A stretch of DNA of 10,181 bases from Candidatus Aminicenantota bacterium (GTDB taxonomy: Bacteria > Acidobacteriota > Aminicenantia > UBA2199). The notes beneath the pieces were generated by a model. It was not told the origin of the DNA and did no database searches. It saw nothing but the letters and a program-made list of their open reading frames with translations. The stretch covers positions 1,011,583 through 1,021,763 of the forward strand of contig CP070627.1 of assembly GCA_020355945.1 (NCBI GenBank), in the 5' to 3' direction. Every line of letters starts with the position of its first letter. Positions within the stretch are counted from its first letter, which is position 1. The translations under genes and the position numbers were made by a program. Positions 1 to 10,181 of this stretch are shown piece by piece.

Positions 1-130
1 AAAGTTTTTGCGGGGGGGTCCAGGGGCCCCTCGGCGAGGGGAGCCTAAAAAGGCAAAGTGCTTTGCCACATACGCTGTGCGCCATGCACCATGCGCAATA
101 CTCTCGCCCCCTGGCCGCCGGAGGCAAGTT
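1..130 (+). repeat. Composite GC-rich hairpin repeat, in frame before A1 of module 1
   Basis: This stretch translates without a stop but looks unlike any protein family (basic, Gly/Pro/Arg-rich, few hydrophobic residues). It is built from small inverted repeats: CCCCTC-GGC-GAGGGG (27-41), GCCT-AAAA-AGGC (43-54) and GGCAAAG-TG-CTTTGCC (52-67). A near-repeated CATGC unit lies at 83-94. Bases 116-125 are the exact reverse complement of 6341-6350 (GCCTCCGGCG). The start of the element lies outside the window. It occupies the place between A0 and A1 where modules 2 and 3 also carry repeat-derived inserts, which supports its being translated. Confidence 0.6.
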
Positions 131-3100
131 ATTTTAACTTACCGTCAATTAAATGAGGAATCCAATCAATTGGCCTCTTTTTTAAGAAAAAAGGGTGTTA
201 CCCGGGGTTCGGTAGTGGTTTTGATGTTTCGCAGTTCTGTTGAGATGGTGCTGGGGGCATTGGCGGTTTTGAAAGCCGGGGGTGCTTACCTGGTTTTATG
301 GCCGGGTTTGGCCGGTGAAACGGTTAACTCGATATTAGCGCAAAGCAGTGCGCTGCTGGTGTTGACCGGCAGTAGTGAAATTGGCAGTCATTCTCTTGCA
401 TTGCTGCGGGACCGGGGGCTGCGTCCTTTTAAACCCTTTTTTACTGAGCCCCGGCAGCAGATCAGTGATTTTGACCACCTGCCTATCCCGGACCGCTCCT
501 TAGTGAATTACGAAAACTACACCCGTGATATTGGTCTGGCAATGGTCAAAAATACCATTACTCTCCAGGGCAGCCGGGGATGTCCTTATCAATGTTTATA
601 TTGTCATAAAATCTGGCCCCGTCGGCATGTGACCCGTTCGGCAGAAAATATTTTCAAAGAGGTGGAGCTTTACTATAACATGGGCATGCGGCGGTTTGTG
701 TTTGTAGATGACATTTTCAACCTGGACCTTCATAATCGTCTGCGGTTTTTTGAACAGGTCATCAAAAACAAGTTAAAAGTGAACTTCTTTTTTCCCAATG
801 GTTTGCGCTGCGATCTATTAACCAGGGATTATATTGATTTAATGGTAAAGGCGGGAACGGTTTCCCTTGGTTTGGCCCTGGAAACAGCCAGTCCCAGGCT
901 GCAGCGACTCATTAAAAAGAACCTGGACCTGGACAAATTGCGGGAAAATATCTTATATATCTGTGAGAAACACCCCCAGGTCATCCTGGAGCTTTTCCTG
1001 ATGCATGGATTTCCCACAGAGACCGAAGAAGAAGCGCTCATGACCCTGGACTTTCTTAAGCACCTGAAATGGGTGGACTTTCCCTATCTTCATATTTTGA
1101 AGATTTACCCCAACAGCGAAATGGCAGAGTTGGCTGTAGAGAAAGGGATTTCAGCGGAGGCCATTGCCCGTTCTGCCAACTTAGCGTTTCATGAGCTGCC
1201 TGATACCTTACCTTTTGACAAATCCTTTACCTTAAAATTCCAGGCTGATTTTCTTAACGACTATTTCCTGGTAAAGGACCGTCTATTAGCCAGGTTACCT
1301 TATCAAATGCGGGTATTAACCCCGGACGAAATCGCGGCCAAGTACAACAGCTATTTACCCACAAAAATAGAAACCTTTGCTCAATTACTGGAATTTGTGG
1401 GAATTTCAGCCGATGAACCGGGAATCCGGGGCGCGGCTTCGGATAAGACTGTCCCTGGTTTACATGCCAAAATGCAGGCGCATTTTCCCCAGGTGCAGCC
1501 GGTTAAACAGGCCTTAAGGATATTACTGCTTGACCTGTCACAATTTTTCAGCAATGAACGGGAAATTCTCTATGACGGCGTGGAACCACCGTTGGGATTG
1601 ATGTATTTATTGACCTATTTGAACCGGGAATTAGCCGGTAGAGTGAACGGAAAAATCGCCAAATCCCGGATCGACTTTGATAGTTTCGATGAATTAAAGG
1701 CGCTGTTGGATGAGTTTCAACCACAAGTGATTGGTATTCGCACCCTTACCTATTACGCAGATTTTTTCCATAAAACCGCTGCCATGATCCGTCATTGGGG
1801 AATCCATGTCCCCATCATAGCGGGTGGCCCCTATGCCACCAGTGACTATGCTGCCATTTTACAGGACCCCCATGTGGACCTGGTGGTGTTGAGTGAAGGG
1901 GAACTTACATTTACACACTTGATCCGCAAAATCCTGGAGAACCAGGGGAAATTACCCGGGGAAAGCATACTCAAGGAAATACCTGGTATTGCATTTATCC
2001 CGGGAAAAGAGAAAGAGAGCAGGGAATCTTACCCGGAAGTCCTGATGCTGGATGCACTGGACCAGGCATTATCCAGGGAAAGCCTGGAGAACCTTGAGCC
2101 GGTGAATCGACCCGGAGACCTGGCTAATATTCTTTATCGAGACCGGGAGAGCGGTTATGAAAAAATACTCCTGGATCATAGCAGTGCCCATGCCTTATGC
2201 AGTGGTTCGGACAACCGCCAGCCAGCAGCCGCTTTTGTGTTTGATGGAGCCGTGCACCAGGTATTCCCGGCCCTGGGCCAGGGGGGAGCCCTGTGTATAT
2301 CCCCCATTGAAAAGGGACTGACCAGCGCAGGATTGGAATTACTTGAATTCTATAAAGCCCCCCGCACCGACACCCTGTCAGGACCCTCGATCAATATCCG
2401 CATCAAACTGGCAGAAAATAATCCCTGGGTGCAAAAAACCGGGTCATTTGAGAATGAAATCGAAGAAAAATTAGCCCTTGTCTGGGCTGAGGTGTTGGGT
2501 ATTGAAAAGAGTAATATCAAAAGAGATGATAACTTTTTTGAAAAAGGGGGCCATTCATTAAGAGCCACTGTCCTGGCAGCGAAAATCCATAAGACCTTTA
2601 ATGTAGACATCCCATTGAAGGAGATATTTTCTACCCCTGATATCCAGGGTTTGGCCCGGCGAATAAAAGAGGCGGTGGAAGAGAAGTTCATTTCTATCAA
2701 GCCTGGAGAAAAGAAGGAGTTTTATGAATTATCATCGGTGCAGAAACGGTTATATGTGATCCAACAAATGGATGAAACAGGGATTAGCTACAATCTCCCG
2801 TCGGTATGGATTTTTCAAGGTGAGGTGGATAAAACACGGCTGGAACAAATCTTCAAGCAGTTAATCACCAGGCATGAAAGTTTAAGAACCTCTTTTAAGA
2901 CAAAGGGAACCCGGCCTGTGCAGTGGATTCATGATAAGGTGGAATTTGAAATTGAATATTATTTAGCCACAGAGAACACAGAGGGGATAAGGGGGCTTGC
3001 CCCCTTGTCTAAAGAGCCCGTAACCGCTCTTATAAGTTCTTTCGTTCGTCCTTTTGATCTTTCGCAGGCGCCGCTGCTGCGGGTGGGGTTGATAAAAACC

Positions 3101-6100
3101 AGTGTCAACCAATACATCCTGTTAGTAGACATGCACCATATTATCTCGGATGGCCGGTCAGCCGAAATATTGATCCGTGAATTTGCCGCCCTTTATGAAA
3201 AAAAAGAACTCCCGGGCTTAAGGCTCCAATATAAAGATTACTCCCTCTGGCTGCACAGGGTTAAAAATAGGGAATCATTGGTCCGCCAACAGGAGTATTG
3301 GTTAAAGGAATTTGCTGCTCAAGGAGAAATACCGAAATTAAATTTACCAACGGATTATGTAAGGCCGGCAGTCCAGGGTTTTGAGGGATTTACCACGAAT
3401 TTTGTCCTTGGCTTTGAAGAGACCGCTGCATTAAAAAACCTGGGATTCACAGCAGGTGCTACATTGTTCATGGTGGTGTTGGCTGTCATTAATCTATTTT
3501 TATCAAAACTAACCAACCAGGAAGATATTGTGGTGGGTACACCAGTGGCTGGCCGCCGGCATGCAGACTTAGAACCCATTATTGGCATGTTTGTCAATAC
3601 CCTGGCATTGAGAAATTTTCCCAAAGGCGAAAAAACCTTTACAGGATTCTTAACCCAGGTCAAAGAAAATGCCTTAATGGCCTTTGAAAACCAGGAATAT
3701 CAATATGAAGACCTGGTGGATGCGGTCAATGTAGACCGGGATACCAGTCGCAATGCTTTGTTTGATGTCGTGTTTGCCCTGGAGGGCGCGGAATTTGACC
3801 ATATCAGCCAATTGCAACTCCCGGGCTTAAAAATAAATAACAGTGAATTTGAAACCAATATCTCCAAGTTTGATCTCACCTTGTTTGCAAACCAGTCAAA
3901 AGGGGAATTATTATTCCGATGGGAGTACAGTACAAAACTCTTCAAACCAACCACGATTGAACGGTTTATCAACTATTTTAAAAATCTCATCTCGGTCATA
4001 TTGGCAAACCCGGGAAAGAAAATATCGCAAATAGAAATGCTGTCCCCGGGAGAAAAAAGCCAAATTTTATATGATTTTAACGATACAAAGGCAGCGTATT
4101 CAAGAAACAAAACCATGCATCAATTGTTCGAGGAACAGGCAGAGAGGACACCGGACCATATGGCCCTGGTAGGGAATTGTCAATTATCAATTGTCAATTG
4201 TCAATTGTCAATGGAAGGGGAGTCCTGCGGACAGGTTTTAAACGCCTGCGGCGAGAGGGGGGGGCTGCCAGCAGATTATGTTTCAATCACCTATCGGGAA
4301 TTGAATGAAAAAGCCAATCAATTGGCAGGGGTATTGAGGAAAAAACGGCTGGATACAAGTGACAATCGACTGGTGGCTCTATTGATGGACAGATCAATCG
4401 AAATGATGGTGAGTGTCATGGGGATTTTAAAAGCCGGGGGTGGGTATATCCCGCTGGACCCATACCTGCCTGAGACTCGTATCGTTTTTATATTGTCTTC
4501 CTTAAATGTGCGGTATGTATTAACCAATCACCTTCAACTCCAGCGCCTGGGTAATGTATTTCAAAAATTACCCGGGTTGGAGCCCATTGTTTGTGTTGAA
4601 GAGGGAGTTAAAGAAATTGCCGCGAATAATAGAGAGAATCCTTTGCCCCTGGCAAAGGCAGAAGACATTGCCTATGTTATTTTTACCTCCGGGTCCACCG
4701 GTGTGCCCAAGGGAGTGGCAGTGCAGCATCGACCGGTGATCAATATTATCCAATGGGTCAATAAGACCTTTACAGTGGGGGCCCCGGATAAGCTGTTGTT
4801 TGTCACCTCGTTGGGATTTGACCTGTCGGTTTACGATATATTTGGAATTTTAGCTTCAGGAGCGTCTATACGTTTAGCTGCCCATCATGATATAAAAAAC
4901 CCGGTTCGTTTATTGGAGATCATATTGAGGGAAGGAATTACCATCTGGGATTCGGCACCGGCAGCGCTGCAGCAGTTGGTACCTTTTTTCCGGGAAACCC
5001 GTAAGTATAAAAATACCAGTGGGTTAAGGTTGGTTTTATTAAGTGGGGACTGGGTACCGGTGACACTGCCTGATATATTAACAGCCACCTTTAAAAGGGG
5101 GCGGGTGATTGCATTAGGGGGAGCCACCGAAGCCACCATCTGGTCCAATTACTACCCGGTGACCCGGGTGGGTCCGGGTTGGACAAGTATTCCTTATGGG
5201 AAACCAGTTCAAAACGCAGCTTATTATATTCTTAATTCCTATGGAAAAGTGTGTCCCCTTGGAGTGCCCGGAGATTTATATATCGGTGGAGAATGCCTGG
5301 CATCCGGCTATATCAACGAACCGGCATTAACCAGGGAAAAATTCGTTCATAATCCGTTTATACCCGGGACCCGCATGTATAAAACCGGGGATATTGCCCG
5401 CTGGTTTGACGATGGGAATATGGAATTCCTGGGTAGAAGCGATAACCAGGTAAAAATAAGAGGTTACCGCATCGAATTGGGAGAAATAGAAACTCAATTG
5501 TTGAATCATAAAGAAGTAAAGGAAGCAGTGGTTATGGCTGTTGGGGCAGCAGGGACAGCGGCCAGTGACCAACGGCTGGTGGCTTATGTGGTTCCTGGTT
5601 CAATGCCGGGAGTAAAAGACCTGTCAGACCAATTGACCAGGAATATCAGGAACTTTTTAAAAGAGAAGCTGCCTGAATATATGATCCCGCAAGCATTTGT
5701 ACTGATGGAGCAGTTCCCTCTAACTCCCAATGGCAAAGTCCACCGCAAAGCACTGCCTGAACCGGTAATGGATACCGGGTGCAATTACTTAGCCCCCCGG
5801 AATGAAATAGAAGAGAAATTGGTGGAAATATGGTCTGAGGTTTTAGGCATACACTCATCCATAGGAATCAATGACAATTTTTTCCAGTTGGGCGGTCACT
5901 CGTTAAATGCCACCACAGTGATATCCAGGATTCACCATGTCTTCAATGTAAAGATGCCCCTGGCAGAAATATTTAGAATACCCAGTGTCCGGGAATTATC
6001 CGAGTACATCCAATCTGCAGCCCGGGAGAAATACGTTACCATCCAACCCGGGGAAGACAGGGAATACTACCCATTGTCTTCGGCCCAGAAGAGATTGTAC

Positions 6101-9100
6101 TTCTTATACCGAATGGATACCCGGAATATTGGTTATAATATGCCGGCAATCATGGTCCTGGAAGGGGATATCGATCAACAAAAGTTTGCAGGAACCTTTA
6201 AACGATTGATCATGATACACGAAAGCTTACGAACCTCTTTTCATATGATTGAAAATGAGCCGGTCCAGGAGATACATGATGAGGTGGAATTCCAGGTAGA
6301 AAATTACGAATTAGAGGAGTCCTTCGGACAGGTTTTCGACGCCTCCGGCGAATCTTCAGCCCACGAATTACACGAATTACACGAAAAGAATGAAAATGAA
6401 AAGGGGACAGGGGGGCTTGCCCCCTTGTCCGGGGAATCTGCAGCAAGCACTATAAATAACTTCATCCGTCCCTTTGATCTATCCCGGGCACCACTGCTTC
6501 GGGTAGGATTGGCAAAAACAGGCCCGGGACAACATATATTACTGGTGGACATGCATCACATCGTATCGGACGGGATCTCAACGGGGCTCCTGTTAAACGG
6601 GTTTATTACACTGATCAACGGTGGTTTTCTGCCTGAACCGGGTGTCACGTATAAAGATTACGCCCAATGGCAGATCAGTCAAATGGAAACCGAGGCTTTA
6701 AAAAAACAGGAAGCCTTTTGGCTCCGGGAATTTGCCGAAGAGATACCGGTGTTGAACCTACCCATGGATTTTCCCCGCCCCTTCGTTCAAAACCTGGAAG
6801 GGAATACCTTGATGTTTGAGATAGGTGCGGCAGAGACGAAACAATTGCAGCAGTTGCTCCTGGAGGAAGAATGTTCCCTGTTTATGGGTTTGTTATCCTT
6901 ATTTAATGTCCTATTATCCAGGCTCAGCAGCCAGGAAGACATCGTGGTGGGGTGCGTTGCAGCAGGACGGTTATTACCAGGGCTGGAGGAAGTTATCGGG
7001 ATGTTTGTCAATACTCTTCCCCTCCGCAATTGTCCTGCCGGAAATAAACCCTTCGGTCAATTTCTGCAAGAGGTAAAAGACAAAACCCTGCGCGCCTTTG
7101 AAAACCAGGAATACCAATTTGAAGAATTGGTAGAGAAATTGTCGGTTAAACGGGATATCGGTCGCAATCCCTTGTTTGACACTGCCCTGGATGTCCAGGA
7201 CCCGGACATCAACATCAACATCAATATCCAGGACGTTCCTATACAGGGTTTGAAAATGAAACCCTACCCCTATTCCAGCCGCATATCCAAGTTTGACCTG
7301 ATATTCCACTGTGAAGACCTAAAGGATAAACTTTTGTTTACCGTCGAATACAGTGTCAAACTCTTTAAAAAGGACACCATCAGCCGCTTCGCTGCATACT
7401 TTAAGAAAATCGTATCCCAGGTGATTGATAATAGGGATATGATGATGGGGGAGATTGATATCCTGGCCGAAGCAGAAAAACAAGAGATATTAAATGATTT
7501 AAACGGTAATGTCGGTAATGTTGACAGTAGTCAAACCTATCCCGGCAGACTCCTTCATCAATTATTTGAAGAACAGGTCACCAGGACCCCGGATTATATC
7601 GCTGTATCAGGAGCCCTTCAATTACACCAAGAAGGGACAAGGGGACTTGCCCCCTTGTCTAAACTTATGTCTATTACCTACAAAGAATTAAATAAAAAAG
7701 CAAACCAATTGGCTCATTTACTGCGAAAAAAAGGAGTTAAACCCGACAATATAGTGGGAATTATGATGGAGCCTGGCCTGGAGATGATTACTGCTGCCCT
7801 GGCCCTATTAAAAGCAGGGGGAGTTTATTTGCCCATTGATCCCACTTATCCCCTGGAACGCATCCAATTTATGTTGGACGATTGTGAAGCAAAGTTTCTA
7901 TTAACCACCAGCGGACCAGTGGAAAATTTCCCCTTTACTGCGCTGCAAGGGCTTCAAATCAATGAGCATAAACATAAACATGGCAGGGGAAGGGGATATT
8001 ATATAACCCCCGGTCGTTCCCAGATTACTGACCTTGATGCCCAGCCATTGGTAGACCGTACCACTGTGAATTATGATAAATACAGCCAGTATATTGGAAT
8101 TGCCATGGTGAAACAGACCATTTCGATTCAAGCCACGCGGGGTTGTCCATACCACTGCGCCTACTGCCATAAAATCTGGCCTAAAAAACACGTGTTCCGC
8201 TCGGCTGAACATATATTCGCTGAAGTGCAACAATATTATCAACTGGGAGTGCGTCGATTCGTTTTTATCGATGATGTTTTCAATTTAAATAGGGAAAACA
8301 GCCAGAGATTTTTTCAATTAATCATTGACAACACTCCGGATGTGCAGCTCTTTTTTCCCAACGGTGTGCGGGGGGATATTTTAACGCGGGACTACATTGA
8401 TCTAATGGTCCAGGCCGGAACCACCAGTATTGCCCTGGCCCTGGAAACTGCCTCCCCCCGATTGCAAAAACTGGTGGGCAAGAACCTCAACCTGGAAAAA
8501 CTGGAGGAAAACCTGGAATACCTCTGCAAACGATATCCTGGTGTTATCCTGGAACTCTTTACCATGCACGGGTTCCCCAGCGAAACCGAAGAAGAAGCAC
8601 TGCAAACCCTGGATTTTATCAAACGTCTCCAATGGCTCCATTTTCCCTATGTCCACATTTTAAAAATTTATCCCTCTACTGATATGGCAGAAATTGCTCG
8701 AAAAAGCGGTATTTCCAGTGACACCATTGCGCGCTCCACCAATCTTGCTTACCACGAACTGCCTGAAACCCTTCCCTTTGACAAACACTTTACTATTAAG
8801 TATCAAGCCGATTTTCTTAACCGGTATTTCCTGTTAAAAGAGCGGCTCCTGCATGTATTGCCATATCAAATGAAAATTTTAACCGAAGATGAACTGGTGC
8901 AAAAGTATAACAGCTATTTGCCTGTTGAAATCAAAACCTTTACCGATTTCCTGGAATTTGCCAGCATCAAACCAGGGGAATTGGACCTCACTGGTTTATC
9001 CAATAAAAACCCCATGCATATACCGAGTTTAGACAGGCGGATAAAAGAGTCCTTTGCTTCATCTGCAGTGGTTCCTCCCGTGGATGCGCTGAAAATATTG

Positions 9101-10181
9101 TTGTTGGACCTCTCTTTATTTTTTAGCAAGGATACAGAAACCATGCTCTATAACCTGGTTGAACCGCCCCTGGGCTTGATGTACCTGTTGACCAACTTGA
9201 AACAGCAATTTGGGAGCAAAATCAATGGTAAGATCGCCAAATCGTGTATTGATTTTGACAATTACCAGGAATTAAAACAACTATTGGAAGAATTCCAGCC
9301 GGATGTCATTGGGCTTCGCACATTAACCTTTTACAAACACTTTTTTCATCGGACCGCGGCCATGATCCGGGACTGGGGGATAGATGTCCCGGTGATTGCT
9401 GGCGGCCCTTATGCCACCAGTGATTACGCCTCTCTTTTAAACGATCATCATATCGACCTGGTGGTACTGGGTGAAGGGGAACTCACCTTTTGCGAGATCA
9501 TAGCGAAAATCCTTGAAAATAACGGGAAATTGCCGGATGAAACCGTATTGCAGCAAATTGCCGGCATTGTTTATATCCCGCGAAAAAATGGTTCCATGAT
9601 TAGCAATACCCGGGCCCGGGAAATTATTATGCCGGATGCCCTTATGTCCATGCTGGCAAAAGAATCAACAGGAAATTTATCCAACACCAATCAACCCGGG
9701 GATACAGCTTATGTGATTTACACTTCCGGCACTACGGGTAAACCCAAAGGTGTCATGGTGGAGCACCGTAATATCACCGGTTTAATGACCACCGGCAAAG
9801 ACCTGTTGGATTACAACAGTGGTGATGTATGGACCATGTTTCATTCCTTTTGTTTTGATTTTTCCGTATGGGAGATGTACGGTGCGCTCCTATATGGCGG
9901 CAAACTGGTATTGATACCCCGGATGATAGCCCGTGACCCCCAGCAGTACCTTGAGATTTTAAAACAGGAACGAGTCACCATCCTCAACCAGACACCCACG
10001 GTATTTTACCAACTGGTACAAGAAGAAATGCAGGACCCTGGCAAAGACCTTCACTTGCGGTATATTATTTTTGGAGGGGAAGCCTTAAAACCCGGGAAAC
10101 TAAAACCCTGGAAGGAAAAATACCCGGAGACAGAACTAATCAATATGTACGGCATCACTGAAACCACGGTTCATGTCACTT
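1..10181 (+). CDS. Giant nonribosomal peptide synthetase with radical SAM inserts (partial at both ends)
   Basis: Frame +2 is open through the whole window, about 3,393 codons, with no stop and no frame break when read row by row. The product is a cytoplasmic multimodular NRPS, which builds a peptide from amino acids held as thioesters on carrier domains. Domain order is: split A (broken) - T - C - A - T - C - split A (cut by the window end). Both split A domains hold a radical SAM plus B12-like insert. Family motifs are clear throughout: HHxxxDG in both C domains, GGHS in both carriers, and SGSTG/SGTTG loops in the second and third A domains. There is no epimerisation, Cy or thioesterase domain here, so release happens elsewhere. 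Start and stop lie outside the window; the first in-frame Met (224) is inside an A domain and is not the start. The chain also carries many in-frame short repeats. Confidence 0.97.
134..430 (+). other. Module 1 A domain, N-terminal part (degenerate)
   Basis: The segment starts with a good A1 motif (LTYRQLNEESNQLA) and reaches the A2 region (LKAGGAYL). Where functional A domains read PIDP-YP-ER after A2, this one reads VLWPGLAGETV, so the conserved Asp and the Pro/Glu/Arg pattern are lost. It then continues to LLVLTGS, the usual strand before the A3 loop, where the radical SAM insert begins. The opening A0 part (FEEQ-RTPD) is not visible, because the preceding 130 bases are repeat-derived. In a working domain this lobe would help bind amino acid and ATP. 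The A2 decay fits the loss of the rest of this A domain downstream. The assignment to the A family is secure; loss of activity is inferred. Confidence 0.85.
431..1505 (+). other. Radical SAM domain inserted in module 1 A domain
   Basis: A radical SAM domain holds a [4Fe-4S] cluster and cleaves S-adenosylmethionine to start radical chemistry. The CX3CX2C cluster motif is intact in RGCPYQCLYCHK, with cysteine codons at 581, 593 and 602. Further marks of the B12-type (BchE-like) branch are FVFVDDIF (695-718), ALETASPRLQ (878 on) and MHGFPTET (1001-1024), the last matching the usual G-P-ET pattern. It is preceded by ISDFDHLPIPDR, which resembles the linker that joins an N-terminal B12 domain to the radical SAM core in stand-alone relatives. 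About 250 bases of helical, conserved linker (for example KYNSYLP) follow before the B12-like domain. The copy in module 3 is closely similar over its whole length. The substrate is unknown; methylation, epimerisation or C-C/C-S bond formation on a carrier-bound residue are all possible. Confidence 0.93.
1508..2005 (+). other. B12-binding-like Rossmann domain, module 1
   Basis: The segment opens with a hydrophobic strand (LRILLLDLSQFF), then EPPLGLMYLLTYL (from 1583), LLDEFQPQVIGIRTLT, IIAGGPYAT (from 1814) and EGELTF (1895-1912). This order of motifs is the signature of the cobalamin-binding domain of radical SAM proteins. I do not see the DxHxxG histidine motif that ligates cobalt in B12 enzymes, so B12 may bind base-off without a histidine ligand, or may not bind at all. 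The domain lies C-terminal to the radical SAM domain, whereas the common order is B12 first. It ends at GIAFIPGKE, which matches the GL-YR-G segment that in stand-alone proteins leads into the radical SAM core. The family call is firm; cofactor binding is inferred. Confidence 0.8.
2102..2440 (+). other. Module 1 A domain, C-terminal remnant (A3 lost, A5-A10 missing)
   Basis: After the insert the A-domain sequence resumes with RPGDLANILYRDRES. This matches the PGD-AYVIYTSGTTG lead-in found at the same place in module 3, but the Gly/Ser/Thr phosphate-binding loop is gone. A later stretch, FVFDGAVHQVFPALGQGGAL, looks like the A4 region (FD-SV-x-F-ALL-G). A few residues resembling the following helix (LELLEFYK) come next, and then the carrier domain begins almost at once. 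Motifs A5 to A10, including the YGPTE, YKTGD and catalytic-lysine regions, are missing: roughly 250 residues compared with module 2. Adenylation by this unit should be impossible. The frame stays open, so this is decay by deletion inside a live gene, not a pseudogene. Confidence 0.82.
2441..2690 (+). other. Carrier (T/PCP) domain, module 1
   Basis: A peptidyl carrier domain that holds the growing chain on a phosphopantetheine arm. It begins with ENEIEEKLALVWAEVLG, continues with DNFFEKGGHSLRAT, and ends around IFSTPDIQGLARRI. The serine that takes the arm is codon 2555 in GGHSL, intact. Length and motif order match the carrier in module 2. Its own A domain is broken, so it must be loaded by another A domain, or it receives the chain from upstream without adding a residue. 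It sits directly after the radical SAM plus B12-like unit, which makes it the likely platform for that enzyme's substrate. Confidence 0.93.
2714..4060 (+). other. Condensation (C) domain, module 2
   Basis: Forms the peptide bond between the chain on T1 and the residue on T2. Core motifs in order: ELSSVQKRLYVIQQM (C1), RHESLRTSF (C2), MHHIISDG (C3 active site, HHxxxDG at 3134-3154), KDYSLWL (C4), IVVGTPVAGRRH and IGMFVNTLALR (C5), NQEYQYEDLV (C6), then the SKFDLTLF region. The intact HHxxxDG argues for a regular condensation domain and against a heterocyclisation (Cy) domain, which would read DxxxxD. The N-terminal motifs look like the LCL type, accepting an L-configured upstream residue; that subtype is by eye only. 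A repeat-derived insert of about a dozen residues lies between IEYYLA and FVRPFDL. Confidence 0.95.
2967..3010 (+). repeat. CACAGAG direct repeat plus GLAPLS palindrome, copy a
   Basis: Two CACAGAG units (2968-2974 and 2977-2983) run into a palindrome with stem GATAAGGGGG (2986-2995), loop CTTG and stem CCCCCTTGTC (3000-3009), with one mismatch. It is read in frame as GIRGLAPLSK inside a C-domain loop. Two more copies of the palindrome exist (6405-6430 and 7636-7659), always in the same orientation and reading frame. There is no T-run after the stem and it lies mid-gene, so a terminator role is unlikely. Confidence 0.8.
4175..4209 (+). repeat. Heptamer tandem repeat AATTGTC x5
   Basis: Five units of AATTGTC (the second is AATTATC) run without gaps. 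Because seven is not a multiple of three, the repeat cycles through all frames and gives the 7-residue period N-C-Q-L-S-I-V. CAATTG within it is self-complementary. It sits between A0 (RTPDHMALVG) and A1 of the module 2 A domain, just before the twin-hairpin element. Repeats of this kind usually occur between genes. Confidence 0.85.
4220..4264 (+). repeat. Twin mini-hairpin element, copy 1, with G8 tract
   Basis: Two 4-bp stems with 3-base loops, GTCC-TGC-GGAC and CGCC-TGC-GGCG, are separated by AGGTTTTAAA and read in frame as ESCGQVLNACGE. A second copy at 6317-6352 keeps 31 of 36 bases by eye and the same reading frame. This copy ends in eight consecutive G (4257-4264), prone to slippage. 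It lies in the A0-A1 insert of module 2. Confidence 0.75.
5798..6035 (+). other. Carrier (T/PCP) domain, module 2
   Basis: A peptidyl carrier domain running from RNEIEEKLVEIWSEVLG through NDNFFQLGGHSLNATT to EIFRIPSVRELSEYI. The phosphopantetheine serine is codon 5900 in GGHSL. It carries the residue chosen by the module 2 A domain and passes the chain to the C domain that starts about 30 bases later. The A10 motif of the A domain ends some 50 bases before it, a normal spacing. Nothing unusual is seen in it. Confidence 0.95.
6317..6352 (+). repeat. Twin mini-hairpin element, copy 2
   Basis: GTCC-TTC-GGAC and CGCC-TCC-GGCG are read as ESFGQVFDASGE, the same frame and orientation as copy 1. 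Differences between the copies fall mainly in hairpin loops and the AT-rich spacer, so the stems are preserved. It opens the long insert in the module 3 C domain. Confidence 0.75.
6362..6385 (+). repeat. Nine-base tandem repeat CACGAATTA
   Basis: Two full units and a six-base partial unit, read as HELHELHE. It follows the twin-hairpin element and precedes a run of N-E-N-E-K codons and palindrome copy b, so three repeat types are stacked in one C-domain loop. Confidence 0.8.
6405..6430 (+). repeat. GLAPLS palindrome, copy b
   Basis: GGACAGGGGGG (6405-6415), loop CTTG, CCCCCTTGTCC (6420-6430): an 11-bp stem in RNA, counting one G-U pair. It is read as GTGGLAPLSG in the module 3 C domain, at the same protein position as copy a in the other C domain. 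Confidence 0.8.
7205..7228 (+). repeat. Hexamer tandem repeat (AACATC), D-I-N-I-N-I-N-I
   Basis: Four six-base units, GACATC, AACATC twice and AATATC, encode alternating Asp/Asn-Ile. They lie in the late part of the module 3 C domain, after LFDTALDVQDP and before the QDVPIQGLK segment, a loop that is short in the sister C domain. The length could vary between strains by whole codons without breaking the frame. Confidence 0.8.
7541..7960 (+). other. Module 3 A domain, N-terminal part (up to motif A2 and beyond)
   Basis: Begins with LLHQLFEEQVTRTPDYIAVSG and has A1 ITYKELNKKANQLAHLL and A2 [23 protein letters not shown], all in good condition, unlike module 1. It runs to AKFLLTTSGP and a short low-complexity bridge, then gives way to the radical SAM insert; the A3 loop follows only at 9719. 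The insertion point is therefore between A2 and A3. Methyltransferase domains are known to interrupt NRPS A domains, but a radical SAM insert is not a case I know to be characterised. A palindrome-derived insert lies between IAVSG and A1. Confidence 0.93.
7634..7660 (+). repeat. GLAPLS palindrome, copy c
   Basis: GACAAGGGG (7636-7644) pairs with CCCCTTGTC (7651-7659) around the loop ACTTGC; an A at 7645 breaks the innermost pair present in copies a and b. It is read as GTRGLAPLSK between A0 (DYIAVSG) and A1 (ITYKEL) of the module 3 A domain, the same frame as the other copies but in a different domain type. Confidence 0.8.
7967..7995 (+). repeat. Hexamer repeats CATAAA and AGGGGA, H-K-H-K-H-G-R-G-R-G
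   Basis: CATAAA CATAAA CAT is followed by GGC AGGGGA AGGGGA. The stretch codes a short basic bridge exactly at the junction between the N-terminal A lobe and the inserted radical SAM unit of module 3. Module 1 has no such bridge. It may be a flexible linker or a scar of repeat expansion. Confidence 0.65.
7997..9082 (+). other. Radical SAM domain inserted in module 3 A domain
   Basis: Second copy of the inserted radical SAM enzyme. The CX3CX2C motif reads RGCPYHCAYCHK, with cysteine codons at 8144, 8156 and 8165. FVFIDDVF (8258 on), ALETASPRLQ and MHGFPSET (8564-8587) follow in the same order as in module 1, and so does the conserved tail with KYNSYLP. Over the best-aligned part the two copies look about two-thirds identical by eye. 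The insert opens with ITDLDAQPLVDR, again like the B12-to-radical-SAM linker of stand-alone proteins. Here the host A domain is intact as far as it can be seen and has a threonine code, so a carrier-bound or adenylated threonine, or the neighbouring residue, is a plausible substrate. The reaction itself cannot be read from the sequence. Confidence 0.93.
9083..9592 (+). other. B12-binding-like Rossmann domain, module 3
   Basis: Same motif series as in module 1: ALKILLLDLSLFF, EPPLGLMYLLTNL (from 9161), LLEEFQPDVIGLRTLT, VIAGGPYAT (to 9418), LGEGELTF (to 9490), GIVYIPRKNG. The GGP-AT and GEGE-TF motifs are the closest to the consensus of cobalamin-binding domains in radical SAM proteins. No DxHxxG motif is visible. 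It follows the radical SAM domain instead of preceding it, as in module 1, so this order is a fixed property of the insert. About 100 bases of variable linker join it to the returning A domain. B12 binding is inferred only. Confidence 0.8.
9692..10181 (+). other. Module 3 A domain, middle part, threonine code (cut by window end)
   Basis: The A domain resumes with QPGDTAYVIYTSGTTGKPKG; A3 spans 9719-9751 with an intact phosphate loop. A4 reads FDFSVWEMY and A5 reads NMYGITETTVH. Pocket residues against PheA are D (9857), F (9860), W (9869), N (9986), I (10067), G (10073), M (10145), V (10169), H (10172). DFWNIGMVH is the known threonine code, an exact match, so L-threonine is a strong prediction. 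Motifs A6-A10 and the following carrier lie beyond the window. The fully consensus catalytic motifs suggest this interrupted domain still adenylates, in contrast to module 1. Confidence 0.93.

Follow-up and report, generated by a model that had tools for sequence, protein, structure and literature searches.

A nonribosomal peptide synthetase (NRPS) encoded in a 10,181-nucleotide stretch of DNA from a Candidatus Aminicenantota bacterium (contig CP070627.1; this whole stretch is called the window below) contains an adenylation (A) domain whose core is split by a radical S-adenosylmethionine (SAM) enzyme followed by a B12-binding domain. The analysis of this insert and its relatives suggested that it is a portable cobalamin-dependent radical SAM (rSAM) domain, most likely a C-methylase, which acts on the residue bound to the carrier (T) domain. 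We give this reading, made from sequence comparison, a probability of approximately 0.57.

The insert of module 3 and its host adenylation domain

The window is spanned by a single uninterrupted frame encoding 3393 amino acids (aa). The Pfam and profile searches gave the domain order [A1-A2]-rSAM-B12-[remnant]-T-C-A-T-C-[A1-A2]-rSAM-B12-[A3-A5], where C is a condensation domain. The whole-frame Pfam scores, in which the two insert copies are pooled, were 3.7e-171 for AMP-binding, 9.2e-40 for Radical_SAM (PF04055) and 5.6e-24 for B12-binding (PF02310).

In the third module, the A motifs A1 (ITYKELN) and A2 (LKAGGVYLPIDP) precede the insert, while A3 (YTSGTTGKPKG) and A5 (NMYGITETT) follow it in the same frame, so that conserved A motifs stand on both sides; A6–A10 lie beyond the window. 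The insert carries the rSAM motif CX3CX2C as C-PYH-C-AY-C. A first-pass annotation of the window had described A1-A2, a complete rSAM core with a B12-binding-like domain, and A3-A5 in one frame, with junctions near 7965 and 9690. The motifs and the Pfam matches bore this out, and the junctions, which we place at 7919 and 9677, had been correct within tens of bases. The specificity code of the host domain, DFWNIGMVH, was read at all nine visible Stachelhaus positions, Lys517 falling outside the window. As we take DFWNIGMVH(K) to be the code of a Thr-activating A domain, the Thr-type specificity named in the annotation agrees with our extraction.

The structure prediction that had been suggested for this region was made using AlphaFold 2 (AF2). 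In the resulting model, the A core of module 3 is predicted to fold around the insert, which forms a separately folded unit. A Foldseek search matched the insert to AprD4 and MgmA, which together with CX3CX2C and the core places it in the radical SAM superfamily. The second part of the insert was assigned to the cobalamin-binding Rossmann domains by PF02310 and by profile matches to TokK and CysS; cobalamin binding itself is predicted. The rows shown by another structure search (VIA-align) were all A domains or NRPSs and were uninformative on the insert. It should be noted that the AF2 model of one relative, P0087 (pTM, the predicted template modelling score, 0.77), was poor past residue ~820 and was not used.

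The family and its host domains

With the insert as a query (E ≤ 0.001), 790 proteins were found near insert length and 713 at 0.55–1.75 times the length of the window protein. For the examination, we took the best 120 of the 790 and the best 120 of the 713, ranked by similarity to the Thr-hosted insert. Together with the window these 240 proteins yielded 259 copies, the window and P0121, which is the same protein, both being counted. The complete layout, A1-A2 followed by rSAM-B12 and A3-A10, was present in 120 of the 259 copies on many independent contigs, so the search for the same domain combination that the annotation had proposed revealed a large family. A further 80 copies were standalone proteins of at most 620 aa, and the other 59 were cut, pseudo-A, after-A or unclear. 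The spacing in the 120 complete copies was tight, with 17–32 aa between the N-terminal part of the A domain and rSAM, and 35–55 aa between B12 and the remaining A domain. In one case (P0125, aa 1806–2323), the rSAM-B12 unit sat at A8-A9, the usual methyltransferase site of interrupted A domains. The B12 domain followed rSAM in 259/259 copies, CX3CX2C was kept in 311 of 315, many further residues were strongly conserved, and the insert was kept even in dead host A domains.

A search of 84,980 species genomes retained 76 loci, mostly from Aminicenantes and Acidobacteriota metagenome-assembled genomes (MAGs), plus Firmicutes. The isolates carrying the insert include Paenibacillus tepidiphilus (L034), Clostridium frigidicarnis (L043) and Abyssisolibacter fermentans (P0206, Thr-coded). 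At strict cut-offs the occurrence was patchy: 7 of 142 genomes in the class of one MAG (up to nine candidates scored per genome) and 1 of 396 in an evenly drawn phylum sample (up to three per genome). The MAG whose class was sampled, G001 (10.4 Mb), had 29 copies of at least 777 bits among the matches listed. A phage or plasmid origin was rejected: there was no PHROG match, and none of the 14 matching plasmid records covered 80% of the query.

The codes of 168 interrupted A domains were Thr (50), Pro-like (18), Glu/Gln-like (18), Ile-like (17), Val-like (13), Asp/Asn-like (10), xWExTADD (8), Leu-like (7), Ser (2) and other (25), with no Gly and no Cys-like code, while 196 uninterrupted A domains included 10 Gly and 9 Cys-like codes. 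The specificity names are those that we presume for each code, and the share of Thr is inflated because the 240 proteins were chosen by similarity to a Thr-hosted insert. The table of codes covers ungapped codes from A segments longer than 150 residues, without P0121 and 11 duplicate locus ORFs (open reading frames); the near-duplicate pair P0163/L003 was kept. The spread of codes rules out a Thr-specific device. The interpretation in the first-pass annotation is partly upheld, in that the host A domain is Thr-coded and is interrupted between A2 and A3 by a complete rSAM core and a B12-binding-like domain, but the insert is not specific to Thr.

The insert sequence follows the host code. On the insert tree, which was built with FastTree only, 43 code changes were counted, against 83 on average over 100 shuffles, and nearest-neighbour inserts shared the code class in 89 of 139 cases (19% expected); 23 of the 162 mapped copies, of class 'other', were excluded from this test. 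Such tracking fits an action on the module's own substrate, and is partly explicable by the shared descent of whole modules. The missing Gly codes fit a target carbon other than C-alpha.

The copy in module 1 shares 52% identity with that of module 3 over 774 columns (BLASTP). In the A domain that hosts it, the A3 loop is gone, as are all motifs from A5 to A10, and the T domain directly follows. Both this copy and the existence of a large family had been overlooked in the first-pass annotation. In the tree, the module 1 copy lies among pseudo-A copies, in a set of ten rows (support 99) made up of seven labelled PSEUDO, two after-A and one other; the window copy is counted twice among the ten, through its identical database entry. 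The PSEUDO label also covers four T-less proteins discussed below, as well as P0140 and P0190, in which another insert probably splits a complete A domain.

Pseudo-A or bare rSAM units leading straight into a T domain numbered 19, the T-less proteins standing outside this set. Two of them, in the window and in P0095, start at the sequence end; the remaining 17, from 16 distinct loci, have visible upstream sequence, and every one of them is directly preceded by a complete A domain. In 13 of the 17 cases, this preceding domain had the code C[V]Q[YF]xAHVV, which is Pro-like but has Cys at position 235, normally a substrate-gating Asp. All 14 Cys235 Pro-like A domains seen, 13 of them distinct (P0122, P0137, P0163, P0164, P0188, P0200, P0222, P0240, L003, L009, L015, L025, L027 and L061), precede an rSAM unit and none occurs elsewhere in the set, a count biased by the retrieval of every protein examined for containing an rSAM unit. 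The substrate of the Cys235 A domains may lack a standard alpha-amino group. Since a complete A domain precedes the rSAM-T unit in all 17 relatives, one with a CVQYxAHVV-like code is predicted to the left of the window, where it is probably served by the rSAM unit of module 1.

Reaction, target and competing explanations

In a profile of 15 insert-family sequences, the rSAM part matched AprD4, whereas the B12 part matched TokK and CysS, which we take to be C-methylases. TokK and CysS combine B12-binding with radical SAM as the insert does, but in the opposite order: their cobalamin domains are N-terminal (matched at chain residues 65–139 and 56–150), as is that of TsrM according to the available text of PMC8992657, whereas rSAM comes first in both window inserts and in 13 aligned standalone relatives. 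Among the 25 of 117 NCBIfam matches listed, the best of rSAM type were ApyD (NF050148; 107.4 bits versus a cut-off of 750) and PhpK (TIGR04479; 96.5 versus 600). They are the closest relatives of this type there, yet their best stretches cover only the rSAM region of the models, and with scores so far under the cut-offs neither family name is transferable to the insert. The B12-rSAM enzyme of the Apy pathway produces beta-methyltyrosine, as described in the available text of PMC10635010. By these comparisons, the insert is a cobalamin radical SAM-like enzyme, placed in no named methylase family.

The proposed reaction would proceed as follows. The host A domain would activate L-Thr and load it onto the downstream T domain. 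The rSAM domain would then cleave SAM reductively at a [4Fe-4S] cluster and, with the methyl group relayed by methylcobalamin, modify the aminoacyl thioester on T. The likeliest outcome is C-methylation of an unactivated carbon, for example C-beta, after which the residue would pass to the next C domain. Methylation at C-beta would convert Thr to 3-hydroxyvaline and Val to tert-leucine. In module 1, where the host A domain is dead, the same enzyme would probably serve the complete one predicted just left of the window. The modification of an aminoacyl-S-T intermediate is favoured because the unit occurs at A2-A3, at A8-A9 and in pseudo-A domains between an active A domain and T. The A8-A9 copy and the dead pseudo-A copies also show that the location inside an active A domain is inessential. 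A general epimerase is ruled out, as 16 of 148 rSAM modules (T followed by a C-superfamily domain) have a separate EGHGR E-like domain.

Several observations weigh against C-methylation of the residue on T. The methylation chemistry itself is read from sequence similarity, the ApyD and PhpK cut-offs were missed so widely that no named reaction is transferable, and the domains stand in the opposite order to those of known cobalamin radical SAM methylases. Among solved structures, the rSAM part matches AprD4 best, and this is a radical diol dehydratase. One Phe-like and one Tyr-like code occur among the 168 interrupted A domains. The Gly deficit and the code–insert correlation come from query-biased, related sequences, for which shared ancestry of whole modules is a possible cause. 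Moreover, another B12-rSAM protein encoded beside some of the NRPSs could be the actual methylase. Separate PhpK-like ORFs (phmmer >250 bits) were found in 7 of 56 NRPS-insert loci (L003/L004, L012/L014, L044, L055 and L066), which represent five separate regions, as L003 overlaps L004 and L012 overlaps L014; one gene is broken up into two ORFs. The ORFs of L014 and L055, which were scanned, exceed the TIGR04479 cut-off. B12-rSAM ORFs of a second type lie beside the NRPS in L023, L025, L029, L030, L037, L038, L040, L058 and L064; in the two that were scanned, L040 and L029, no NCBIfam model scored above its cut-off. No connection between these adjacent genes and the reaction of the insert was established.

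The AprD4 match, the reversed order and the low scores against the listed named methylase models would equally suit a cobalamin rSAM enzyme that acts on the T-bound residue by dehydration, rearrangement, oxidation or C–C bond formation instead of methylation. We consider this unlikely, but still a serious candidate. Methylation is favoured by the TokK and CysS matches of the B12 part and by ApyD being the best listed rSAM-type match, and AprD4 reportedly works without cobalamin, whereas the B12 domain accompanies rSAM in every copy.

The standalone relatives of the insert, close to it in sequence and ~550 aa long, bear on this alternative as well. Nine of them (L048–L054, L057 and L059; from proteobacterial records, SAR11 among them, and from SAR324 and Selenomonas records) make up one side of a branch with 100% support. 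An AMP-ligase-like ORF was present in seven of the nine fetched loci (L048, L050, L051, L052, L053, L057 and L059), adjoining the standalone gene in L051 and L059. The Pfam scan of L059, the only one of the nine scanned, found AMP-binding, LuxE, LuxC, FabA-like and SPASM radical SAM proteins, a neighbourhood that may point to a chemistry other than methylation; a short ORF there, picked by eye as a carrier-protein candidate, had no Pfam match. Transketolase-like ORFs, judged by eye only, were seen in several standalone loci. These loci are possibly surface-glycan or lipid clusters. In L060, from [Clostridium] polysaccharolyticum, the neighbours of a standalone form include A, A-T and ketosynthase-like genes. 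Our guess is that the ancestral role was on carrier-bound acyl groups.

The insert could also act on the growing or finished peptide, on a residue bound to the T domain of another module, or on a free amino acid. The existence of standalone forms agrees with this, as does DscE, which modifies discodermins in trans in vitro according to the available text of PMC12858407. The T-less proteins are the main misfit to the A-rSAM-T arrangement: P0074, P0082, P0083 and P0112 begin with a pseudo-A domain that leads, with no T in between, into a partial C domain, and the L028 ORF 9614–12202 is a T-less pseudo-A form directly after a protein ending in T-C; none of the five has a complete A domain in the same protein. 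Because such proteins exist, our confidence in methylation on T, and in the fuller form of it given below, is lowered. Nevertheless, the insert sequence tracks the code of its host A domain, and a complete A domain adjoins rSAM in all 17 rSAM-T rows with visible upstream sequence, so we find these other targets distinctly improbable. The methylase inserts of known interrupted A domains likewise act on T after loading, as stated in the available text of PMC11355689.

A decaying or structural, non-catalytic insertion is very improbable: the first cysteine of the motif is lost in 2 of 154 INS copies, but the near-universal CX3CX2C, the many other conserved residues and the retention of the insert in dead host domains argue for catalysis. 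A chimeric assembly of an NRPS with a standalone rSAM gene, such as those of the ~550-aa relatives, can be dismissed, since the identical junctions, spacing and frame recur in the 120 complete copies from many assemblies and independent contigs, including those of the isolates P. tepidiphilus, C. frigidicarnis and A. fermentans.

C-methylation of the T-bound residue can also be put in a fuller form, which we hold only tentatively. The family would be a dedicated, swappable C(sp3)-H-methylating NRPS domain, a permuted cobalamin rSAM enzyme for A2-A3, A8-A9 or pseudo-A positions that C-methylates the T-bound residue of its host module (Thr, Val, Ile, Pro, Glu/Gln, Asp/Asn and others), while the pseudo-A form, usually paired with a Cys235 A domain, may act on a non-standard acid.

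Known interrupted domains and other features of the window

Interrupted A domains are a known class. In TioN, MarQ and TtcC, the A core is split at the same A2-A3 loop by a SAM-using tailoring domain and the A fold is kept, as here. The A2-A3 inserts in the part of Table 2 of PMC11355689 that was covered make N- or S-methyl groups, whereas a radical SAM enzyme with B12 would be suited to an unactivated carbon. The available texts of PMC8097286 and PMC8949500 catalogue oxidase, monooxygenase and ketoreductase inserts, which have the same enzyme-in-enzyme layout, but name no radical SAM insert. The word 'radical' is absent from the main texts of these three papers, which cover methyltransferase, ketoreductase/reductase, oxidase and monooxygenase inserts. 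The literature searched by title and the start of the abstract held no description of an A domain interrupted by radical SAM; as the main catalogue (Lundy et al. 2020) lay outside that search, priority is unproven. Within the literature so searched, it would be the first radical SAM enzyme embedded in an adenylation domain. A comparable chemistry is that of DscE, a standalone B12-rSAM C-methyltransferase encoded in the NRPS gene cluster for discodermins, which likewise performs cobalamin rSAM C-methylation of a nonribosomal peptide; it is a separate, trans-acting protein not embedded in an A domain, and is likened here by its description in the available text of PMC12858407, without sequence comparison. 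This 2025 Entotheonella paper calls an NRPS with a homolog of an rSAM C-methyltransferase 'an unusual enzyme combination' (PMC12858407).

If C-methylation on T is correct, the assembly line could alter a building block while loading it. Peptide drugs gain much from C-methylation at unactivated carbons, which is found in tert-leucine and in beta-methyl amino acids and is highly valued there. In the literature covered, this modification of nonribosomal peptides comes only from the trans-acting DscE (available text of PMC12858407). C-methylation acting in cis, module by module, would be a tool for NRPS engineering and would make C-methylated residues explicable from the genome sequence. The reversed order bears on how cobalamin and radical SAM domains cooperate, and the named isolates open the finding to direct testing.

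The features of the window are collected in Table 1.

Table 1. Annotated features of the 10,181-nucleotide window.
Feature	Position	Strand	Evidence
NRPS open frame, truncated at both window ends: [psiA-rSAM-B12]-T-C-A-T-C-[A(rSAM-B12)...	2..10180	+	ORF, Pfam, profiles
Module 1 pseudo-adenylation domain (psiA), A1-A2 part	134..364	+	AN profile 47-134/138; TIGR01733 positions 1-81/409
Module 1 insert: rSAM core (CX3CX2C 581-604), then B12-binding domain (~1502-1996)	365..2101	+	BLASTP, Pfam, NCBIfam
Module 1 decayed A3-A4 remnant, without SGTTGKPKG loop and A5-A10; T directly after	2105..2430	+	
Module 1 T (carrier) domain, core FFEKGGHSLRAT at 2534-2572	2441..2686	+	Pfam, profile, motif
Condensation domain, motif HHIISDG	2714..4069	+	Pfam 905-1356 aa; motif
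Module 2 A domain, uninterrupted, code DLYDLSLIW (presumably Cys-like)	4127..5737	+	Pfam, code extraction
Module 2 T domain	5813..6010	+	Pfam
Condensation domain, motif HHIVSDG, limits approximate	6062..7411	+	Second of two Pfam Condensation stretches; motif
Module 3 A domain, N-terminal part with A1-A2 (motifs 7673-7852)	7541..7918	+	Pfam, profile, motifs
Module 3 insert: rSAM ~8000-8983 (CX3CX2C 8144-8167), helical linker, B12-binding ~9077-9571 (GGPYAT, GEGE motifs)	7919..9676	+	
Module 3 A domain resumed: A3 9710-9766, A4 region 9848-9883, A5 10139-10174	9677..10180	+	Window ends past A5

Many of the relatives, such as P0153, P0169 and L034, open with a C domain reduced to its C-terminal half (profile from position ~185), whereas the C domain at their end is complete, which is possibly a docking arrangement. 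The window holds three copies (2980–3013, 6400–6433 and 7630–7663) of a 34-nt repeat that contains a GGGGGCTTGCCCCC-like palindrome, lies in frame within the NRPS and encodes the peptide GLAPLS; none of the 76 loci contained its 20-nt cores in exact form. Copies of a second repeat family, D6, lie at 4216 and 6313.
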